Assembly (NCBI RefSeq): GCF_013284055.1
Contig: NZ_CP054143.1
Span: forward strand, 2,294,001-2,358,000
Source: Deefgea piscis
GTDB taxonomy: Bacteria; Pseudomonadota; Gammaproteobacteria; Burkholderiales; Chitinibacteraceae
Direction: 5' to 3'
DNA length: 64,000 bases
Shown here: positions 54,588 to 56,268 of the stretch, in pieces
Numbering within the stretch: the stretch's first letter is position 1
Layout: each line of letters opens with the position of its first letter
Notes under the pieces: generated by a model
Seen by the model: the letters and a program-made list of their open reading frames with translations, nothing else
Told to the model about the DNA's origin: nothing
The model's database searches: none
Made by a program: the position numbers and the translations under genes

Positions 54588-55619
54588 TTAAAAGTAATAC
54601 ATCCCCATTGCAGTTTTGACTTTATGCAAGGTGAGCGCGGCAGTTTGTCGAGCTTTGGCTGAGCCACATAGCAATAGCGACAAAATGGCATCGGGGTCTT
54701 TGGCTAATTGTGCACGGCGTTCGCGAATCGGGCCGATCAGGGCTTGTAATTGTTCATTGAGGCGCGCTTTGATCACTCGATCGGCCAGTCCGCCATGCTG
54801 GTATTGAGCTTTTAATTCATTGACGTGTGCTGGTTCGGCATCAAATGCATCTAAAAAGCTAAACACCACATTGCCTTCAATTTGGCCAGGGCTGCCAATG
54901 GTGAGGTGGTTGGCGTCGGTATACATTTTATTGACCGCCTGCTCAATGTCATCCGCGCTGGCAGCCAGGCTAATGTGATTGCCTGCGGCACGGCTCATTT
55001 TTGTTTTGCCATCAATGCCCGGCAGGCGACTGGTATTAGACAGTAAGGCACTGCATTCATTGAGTACGTTTTCGCCCACCATGCGGTTAAAACGGCGAAC
55101 AATTTCATTGGTTTGCTCAATCATTGGCAATTGATCGGCGCCAACCGGAATCAAGCTGCCGCGCAAAGCGGTAATGTCAGCGGCTTGGCTAACGGGATAA
55201 GTTAAAAAACCAGCGGCCACATCGCGATCTTGCCCTTTGGCCTTGAGTTCGGATTTGACGGTGGGATTACGCTCTAAACGGGCGATGGAAACCAGATTCA
55301 TTAAGTAAAAAGACAGCTCAGCCAGTTCTGGCACCATAGATTGAATCAAAATGGTCGACTTTTGCGGATCGATGCCGACGGCAAGGTAATCCAGCGCCAC
55401 ATCAATCACCGACTGACGTACTGCACGATAATCGCCTTGATGGTCGGCCAAGGCTTGCGTGTCGGCTAATAAAATAAAGGGATGATGGGTTTCTTGTAGG
55501 CTAAGGCGAGTTTGTAGTGAGCCAACATAATGGCCTAAATGCAAGGGGCCAGTGGTGCGATCACCGGTGACCACGATGGTGGCTGCCGATGGATTCGACG
55601 CGGTAGATGTTTGTGACAT
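54588..55619 (-). CDS. trpS: Tryptophanyl-tRNA synthetase
   Basis: Charges tRNA(Trp). The start is ATG 55619 with AAGGAG upstream; an upstream in-frame start at 55670 lies inside the attenuator. The 343 residues include the class I HIGH-type motif in GPLHLGHYVG (about 27-30), the adenylate-binding region and KMSRA (207-211) in place of KMSKS. The Arg variant occurs in some TrpRS enzymes. Upstream lies a Trp-rich leader peptide with an attenuator, so expression should rise when charged tRNA(Trp) is short. Confidence 0.96.
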   Translation of the reverse strand: MSQTSTASNPSAATIVVTGDRTTGPLHLGHYVGSLQTRLSLQETHHPFILLADTQALADHQGDYRAVRQSVIDVALDYLAVGIDPQKSTILIQSMVPELAELSFYLMNLVSIARLERNPTVKSELKAKGQDRDVAAGFLTYPVSQAADITALRGSLIPVGADQLPMIEQTNEIVRRFNRMVGENVLNECSALLSNTSRLPGIDGKTKMSRAAGNHISLAASADDIEQAVNKMYTDANHLTIGSPGQIEGNVVFSFLDAFDAEPAHVNELKAQYQHGGLADRVIKARLNEQLQALIGPIRERRAQLAKDPDAILSLLLCGSAKARQTAALTLHKVKTAMGMYYF

Positions 55620-55668
55620 GATGCTGCTCCTTAAAATGGAGCCGCCGGATGGGAGAGGGGTAGAAAAC

Positions 55669-55704
55669 AAAAAAACCTGTCACCGTAATCCGGCGGCAGG
55701 TTTT
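55669..55704 (-). terminator. Attenuator terminator of trpS
   Basis: On the minus strand AAAACCTG (55704-55697) pairs with CAGGTTTT (55679-55672). A second CCG/CGG stem lies inside, and a run of seven Ts ends at 55669. It is the 3:4 hairpin of the trpS leader: it forms unless segment 2 captures segment 3. Confidence 0.85.
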
Positions 55705-55743
55705 GTCGATACCAACAAGCCCAGTGCCGCCTAGAGGCGCCAC
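55692..55743 (-). promoter_or_regulatory. trpS leader 1:2 and 2:3 alternative stems
   Basis: Segment 1 GTGGCGCC (55743-55736) overlaps the last codons of the leader peptide. It pairs with segment 2 GGCGGCAC (55731-55724) in 7 of 8 positions. Segment 2 can instead pair with TGCCGCC (55698-55692), the 5' side of the terminator, over 7 perfect base pairs. That choice is the antiterminator. Stalling at the Trp codons should free segment 2 to pair with segment 3. Confidence 0.85.
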
Positions 55744-55778
55744 CAGTAATAAGCAACAGAAAGGGTGTGTTGGATCAT
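55731..55778 (-). CDS. trpS leader peptide with tandem Trp codons
   Basis: A short frame from ATG 55778 encodes MIQHTLSVAYYWWRL and ends at TAG. An in-frame ATG at 55784 would give MNM at the start. A GAG box precedes the inner ATG by about 8 bases. The two adjacent Trp codons near the end, and the stems that begin within the last codons, are the layout of a classical trp leader, here in front of trpS rather than a biosynthetic operon. Confidence 0.88.
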   Translation of the reverse strand: MIQHTLSVAYYWWRL

Positions 55779-55974
55779 GTTCATGGCTCAATAGTGACAG
55801 GCTTAACTTTAGCCCGTCAAGTGTTTTGCCCTTTATTGCAAGCCAACAGCAATTAATTTCGTTAGGTATGGGCTTGTACGCTTTATTTTAAAAAGCATTT
55901 AGTGATATACCTAGATTGATTGAAGTATGTCTGCATGGCACGGTTTAACCACAATCAGCAGACATAGCAATACT

Positions 55975-56268
55975 TTATCGTGACGGTGTTGGTGGCGGGT
56001 CAAAACTCATTAGCGGTTTGCGGCATAGACGATAGTAGGCAATGGGCGTGGCTTGTGGCCGACTGCTCCGCGCCACACTAATGAAAATTTGCCAGTCGCT
56101 GTCTGCGAGCTTTTGATTCATGCTGGCAATTAAACCGTGCGGATTTTGGATGACACAGTGCTTGATCAGCTCAACACTGGTGCATTGCCGTTGCCGGCTG
56201 AGGCGTTGATAGATTTTTGCTTCGTCGGGAGTCCAGTCGATAAGAAGTAAGGGAGATTGTTCTGACAT
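55975..56268 (-). CDS. Small hypothetical protein downstream of the MscS-type gene
   Basis: A 97-residue basic protein I do not recognise. The segment EAKIYQRLSRQRQCTSVELI followed by NPHGLIASMNQKL suggests a winged helix-turn-helix, like short DNA-binding or replication-associated domains. The evidence is weak. The C-terminus is Pro-rich. It starts 8 bp after the mechanosensitive-channel gene and is probably co-transcribed. The alternative is a small regulator with no link to the channel. Confidence 0.65.
   Translation of the reverse strand: MSEQSPLLLIDWTPDEAKIYQRLSRQRQCTSVELIKHCVIQNPHGLIASMNQKLADSDWQIFISVARSSRPQATPIAYYRLCRKPLMSFDPPPTPSR

Follow-up and report, generated by a model that had tools for sequence, protein, structure and literature searches.

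What controls the trpS gene of Deefgea piscis, and why is a pairing partner for the RNA ahead of it conserved beyond the point at which transcription should stop? The gene occupies 54588..55619 of the window, by which we mean the whole stretch of 64,000 nucleotides analyzed, and starts at 55619 on the minus strand, as all of the window features described below lie on that strand. Its 343-aa product matches PF00579 and TIGR00233, and the nearest solved structure is TrpRS II of Deinococcus radiodurans (E 1e-109, with all other structures at 3e-62 or weaker). Judged by its sequence, the product is an auxiliary tryptophanyl-tRNA synthetase of the TrpRS-II type and not the housekeeping TrpRS, and the same genome also encodes a housekeeping-type TrpS (37% identical, in a 459-aa frame). 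The TrpRS-II type is found in about 20 of 150 sampled genomes of the order, most of which also carry a TrpS of roughly 400 aa. This coexistence is not universal, as the TrpRS-II type is the sole TrpS in three genomes (G025, G072, and G056). One genome has four TrpS-like matches, and in it a second TrpRS-II gene and another TrpS-like gene adjoin in opposite directions (G032:C41:23973-26119). Elsewhere, auxiliary TrpRS enzymes have been reported to confer indolmycin resistance or to partner a nitric oxide synthase (PMC9437257).

A preliminary description of this DNA proposed that a classical tryptophan attenuator precedes trpS, comprising a leader peptide of 15-17 codons that ends YYWWRL-stop with adjacent Trp codons, a 1:2 stem beginning in the last leader codons, an alternative 7-bp 2:3 pairing, and a 3:4 terminator with seven Us. 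All four parts are there, in the right order upstream of trpS. The leader ORF, MNMIQHTLSVAYYWWRL-stop (TAG; end YYWWRL), spans 17 codons (55731..55784), and its tandem UGG codons (55740..55745), the presumptive Trp sensors, are part of segment 1 (55736..55744). In the fold, segment 1 pairs with segment 2 (55720..55731) to give a stem, GGUG.CGCC/GGCG.CACU, that begins within the Trp codons. Segment 2 can alternatively pair with segment 3 (55688..55704) through the 7-bp core GGCGGCA/UGCCGCC, and segment 3 pairs with segment 4 (55672..55685) to form an intrinsic terminator hairpin (55672..55704) followed by seven T, the U-run UUUUUUUGUUUU (55664..55675) overlapping the 3′ end of the hairpin. These ordered pairings and the U-run terminator are those of a classical trp-type attenuator. 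By base counting, with the second Trp codon starting at base 1, segment 2 starts at the twelfth base, which is also the last base of the leader stop codon. Because of this one-base overlap, a ribosome at the stop codon would cover segment 2 and a ribosome stalled at the Trp codons would leave it free. Between the leader and an MscS-type channel gene lies a 97-aa ORF (55975-56268) that has no Pfam or NCBIfam match.

GC-rich terminators are common and the genes upstream have the same orientation as trpS, so it could be argued that we are looking at the ordinary terminator of an upstream transcript beside a random small ORF. The leader region, however, folds well below its shuffles (z = -4.1), and in the 128 kb made up by both strands of the window the trpS leader is the single tandem-Trp mini-ORF with a terminator after it. 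A leader and terminator also stand in the same place ahead of trpS at 124 related loci in the Chitinibacteraceae, Chromobacteriaceae, Burkholderiaceae, and Oxalobacteraceae, and the stems covary. The element is thus more than chance, and we give the chance reading, which conservation already refutes, virtually no credence.

The locus set comprised 80 loci from a genome scan for relatives of the TrpS protein and more from searches of the order, of the organism’s own family, and of the Chromobacteriaceae; the 124 are only those with a clear leader and terminator. Two or three Trp codons occur in 123 of the 124 leaders, at a similar distance to trpS; the peptides end most often in WWRA or WWRL. 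The leader at L083 has one Trp only (YYKWRP). In genus g96 of the organism’s own family (L131-L137), the leader is a variant in which a single Trp is followed by Tyr or Cys (SWYYR/SWCYR; ..SWYYRQYMLLAA or similar) and which is rewired such that segment 2 lies inside the ORF. Selection on the N-terminal peptide was considered and set aside, as the signal was weak (461, 407, and 519 changes at the three codon positions), suggesting that what is conserved in the N-terminal part of the leader is the frame and the Trp codons rather than the peptide. The 3:4 terminator covaries, with 95.8% of cells paired and 33 double-changed cells when scored in the same way as the 3:5 pairing described below. The 2:3 pairing is the least independently proven of the set (mean z -1.7; p<0.05 at 18 of 40 loci). 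Static folding did not favor 2:3 over 3:4 even with a stalled ribosome, and was rejected as an arbiter between them because 3:4 always wins at equilibrium; the switch must then be kinetic, as in classical attenuators. The comparison of related upstream regions that the preliminary description had called for thus came out in its favor: Neisseriales and Burkholderiales alike keep the leader frame with its tandem Trp codons, and the stems covary.

The same conservation bears on whether a ribosome is the sensor at all. Other bacteria control trp genes by T-box or TRAP-like means, and a protein- or tRNA-binding switch of that kind, with the Trp codons incidental, would be an alternative for which we found nothing specific. 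A cmscan search against Rfam (Trp leader, T-box, and other families) gave no match at the element in the window or in ten relatives, and in-frame tandem UGG codons are kept together with a start and a stop while the remaining peptide drifts. We therefore regard such a switch as very improbable.

The leader is missing ahead of some TrpRS-II genes (L007, L008, and several others; L091, L095, L096, L097, L099, L100, and L123). Two of these, L095 in G072 and L096 in G025, belong to genomes whose only TrpS is of the TrpRS-II type. The idea that the leader is restricted to genomes in which TrpRS-II is a second copy was rejected, since L093 in G056 is the sole TrpS of its genome and retains a leader; its terminator is degenerate (-5.4 kcal/mol), and its 3:5 pairing is still a perfect 10 bp.

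Where does the leader transcript begin? A predicted -35 element, TTGACG (55815..55820), and a weak predicted -10 element, CACTAT (55791..55796), precede the leader, in the layout TTGACG, 18 nt, CACTAT, 6 nt, ATG. Almost every relative in the Chitinibacteraceae and Oxalobacteraceae has TTGAC[GA] at this place, and the -10 element is TATACT in Burkholderiaceae. When the 80 nt upstream of the leader were scanned, 55 of 86 nonredundant loci had a best promoter-like pair whose -10 element ended 6 or 7 nt short of the leader ATG, and shuffled sequences gave a flat distribution. A -10 element this close to the ATG in most loci suggests that the leader mRNA probably begins at, or next to, the AUG, and that the leader ORF is transcribed leaderless. 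A transcription start downstream of the leader would have spoken against attenuation; the predicted start is at the leader AUG instead. Leaderless Trp leaders are on record, as the Sinorhizobium meliloti trpL RNA starts at its own ATG, resembling the start predicted here (PMC7298713), and trpL1 and trpL2 of Streptomyces lividans are leaderless too (PMC8079986).

The attenuator as first described is supported but incomplete, as it serves an auxiliary TrpRS-II gene, has a seemingly leaderless leader ORF, and is followed by a conserved fifth segment. Segment 5, AUCCGGCGGC (55641-55650), sits between the terminator and the trpS ribosome-binding site, just upstream of the latter, and is a perfect 10-bp complement of GCCGCCGGAU in segment 3 (55688-55697), so that the pairing extends into bases of the terminator loop. 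Compared with dinucleotide-shuffled downstream sequence, the 3:5 duplex has a mean z of -3.0 over 40 nonredundant loci, with 32 of the 40 at p<0.05, and segment 4, used as a control, showed no pairing excess with the same downstream sequence in these loci. Segments 3 and 5 pair better with their own partners (-20.6 kcal/mol) than with swapped ones (-16.2 kcal/mol). Across 38 aligned sequences, 96.0% of 3:5 cells are paired, against 19-65% in slid controls, and 54 cells are double-changed, against 14.4 +/- 3.4 after shuffling, a value reached in none of 500 shuffles. An alignment that had not been trimmed by pairing gave 95.9% against 22-61% for the slid controls. Two terminator-loop columns that are unpaired in 3:4 each show four standard pair types within 3:5, indicating that selection acts on the 3:5 helix as such. 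Its signal is as strong as that of the terminator itself (96.0% versus 95.8% of cells paired). In the Chromobacteriaceae, the terminator is built differently and 3:5 is kept in different sequences, as in the pairs GGAAGCUGCCGAU/AUCGGCAGUUUCC and GGAGCUGCCAGCA/UUGCUGGCAGUCUCC. Such a conserved pairing beside the trpS ribosome-binding site is apparently undescribed.

Since segment 5 lies 3′ of the terminator, it can act only on read-through RNA. In the window, its bases are shared with a hairpin, GCUCC-AUUUUAA-GGAGC (55626..55642), that sequesters the trpS Shine-Dalgarno AAGGAG (55627..55632), and in the Chitinibacteraceae and Chromobacteriaceae the 3′ end of segment 5 also pairs with the Shine-Dalgarno (GCUCC/GGAGC and GUCUCC/GGAGA-type hairpins). 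With segment 5 made unavailable, the ribosome-binding site was predicted to become easier to open, by an average of 2.3 kcal/mol across 40 loci; the two shuffled controls gave 0.75 and 0.80 kcal/mol (Wilcoxon p 2.6e-4 and 5.1e-4). The effect is 4-9 kcal/mol in many Neisseriales and 5.5 in the window, where a 3-bp Shine-Dalgarno hairpin remains in the 3:5 state. Burkholderiaceae have a weak Shine-Dalgarno, and the effect there is variable and at times of the wrong sign. The energy comparison consequently favors opening of a Shine-Dalgarno hairpin by a competing pairing in Neisseriales and is variable in Burkholderiaceae. These energies suggest, with confidence that we would put near the midpoint, that translation of trpS from the read-through mRNA is enabled by 3:5 pairing and that a formed 3:4 hairpin leaves segment 5 to close it. 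In several Burkholderiaceae (e.g., L015, L017, L045, and L050), CAGACC recurs directly before the trpS ATG together with a weak Shine-Dalgarno, and it shows partial complementarity to GGCUGG, with which segment 5 starts.

Two other roles for segment 5 have to be weighed against a translational one. If the attenuator had four segments only, segment 5 might stabilize the mRNA or shield the 5′ end of the read-through transcript from RNases. Among the late pairings, the 3:5 helix is the strongest, and it would leave less of the RNA single-stranded; the variable effect on the ribosome-binding site in Burkholderiaceae fits such a role as well. Against it, segment 5 sits 17-31 nt ahead of the start codon in most loci, and blocking it opens the ribosome-binding site beyond controls, strongly so in Neisseriales. 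We consider a stability role unlikely, yet it is the most serious of the alternatives. Because the terminator region, which separates the leader stop from trpS, is looped out by 3:5, this pairing might instead bring the leader stop and the trpS start together, allowing ribosomes that finish the leader to re-initiate at trpS; re-initiation after leader peptides is proposed in general terms in PMC4833913. This arrangement would favor the Trp-replete state, whose transcript is terminated, and most Neisseriales trpS genes carry a Shine-Dalgarno of their own, making re-initiation a distinctly less probable account than stability.

We are thus left with a reading that we hold to be quite likely, in which the element is a ribosome-mediated Trp attenuator of an auxiliary TrpRS-II-type synthetase with an additional conserved 3:5 pairing. 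Transcription would start at or next to the AUG of the 17-codon leader. When charged tRNA-Trp is scarce, through Trp shortage or TrpRS inhibition, a ribosome would stall on UGG-UGG and mask segment 1, and 2:3 would then pair, blocking the 3:4 terminator and allowing trpS to be transcribed. When Trp-tRNA is plentiful, the ribosome would reach the stop codon and cover segment 2, and 3:4 would terminate transcription. In read-through RNA, segment 5 would pair with segment 3, using the terminator-loop bases of segment 3, which are not used in 2:3, as a foothold from which to displace segment 2. In the Chitinibacteraceae and Chromobacteriaceae, where segment 5 otherwise helps to close the Shine-Dalgarno hairpin, 3:5 should open trpS, and RNA that leaks past a formed 3:4 hairpin would stay shut for translation. 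The response to charged tRNA-Trp is deduced from this architecture, and its physiological purpose may be to sustain the charging of tRNA-Trp when Trp runs short or TrpRS is inhibited. A wider proposal, to which we give slightly less than even weight, is that these loci represent a previously undescribed betaproteobacterial family of RNA switches in which the 5′ arm of the terminator can pair with only one of three partners (2, 4, or 5) at a time and strand displacement via loop bases would turn a transcriptional choice into a lasting translational one, giving two-level control of an auxiliary, possibly inhibitor-resistant, TrpRS.

How far is this element new? When a covariance model built from it was run on a class-wide set of 369 genomes, in which these families are thinly represented, the only genuine match was in the element’s own genome; a match at L168 in G470 (E about 1e-4) was dismissed as chance because its neighbor genes are unrelated and there is no trpS or leader. 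The element is a conserved regulatory RNA that lacks an Rfam match and spans several betaproteobacterial families. Its target belongs to the same group as enzymes tied elsewhere to stress and to TrpRS-targeting antibiotics. The fifth segment could let one Trp-shortage signal govern both transcription and translation, and it offers a testable design, with dozens of natural compensatory variants, for how an attenuator’s transcriptional choice might be passed on to translation. We would file the transcriptional part among the classical attenuators and place the novelty in the conserved fifth segment.

The enteric trp and phe attenuators (trpL, pheST) use a four-segment logic that ends in an intrinsic terminator. 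They and S. meliloti trpL (PMC7298713) share with the D. piscis element this logic, the tandem Trp codons, and the intrinsic terminator; the element described here differs in targeting an auxiliary TrpRS instead of trpE and in having a conserved fifth segment after the terminator. For tryptophanyl-tRNA synthetase genes, the Trp leaders that we found in the open literature are those of Streptomyces only, namely Streptomyces avermitilis trpS2 (PMC1262725) and S. lividans trpL2-trpS (PMC8079986), and subscription papers may hold an earlier betaproteobacterial prediction. The preliminary description’s remark that Trp attenuation of a synthetase gene is less common, with no description known for this lineage, must accordingly be divided, as the Streptomyces leaders are a precedent for the former and no betaproteobacterial case appeared in the open literature. 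As in D. piscis, a Trp-codon leader peptide precedes the synthetase gene in Streptomyces, and in S. lividans the leader ORF is leaderless. According to PMC9437257, which cites Kitabatake 2002, Streptomyces coelicolor also has a second TrpRS, the indolmycin-resistant TrpRS1, which is induced there. Unlike the leader described here, S. lividans trpL2 contains just one Trp codon and lacks a U-run, and the Streptomyces leaders belong to a different phylum and have no reported 3:5 pairing. Control at two levels from one leader is familiar from the TRAP-controlled trp leader of Bacillus subtilis, which acts on both transcription and translation of the read-through RNA; the sensor is a protein there and would be the ribosome here. 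A logic much like the proposed role of 3:5 operates in B. subtilis vmlR, in which termination depends on a ribosome that stalls in a leader ORF, and a pairing in the read-through RNA disrupts a Shine-Dalgarno-sequestering hairpin (PMC9226507). The vmlR leader senses antibiotics through a tripeptide ORF and differs in sequence and arrangement, whereas in the trpS leader the predicted opener is segment 3, an arm of the terminator itself.
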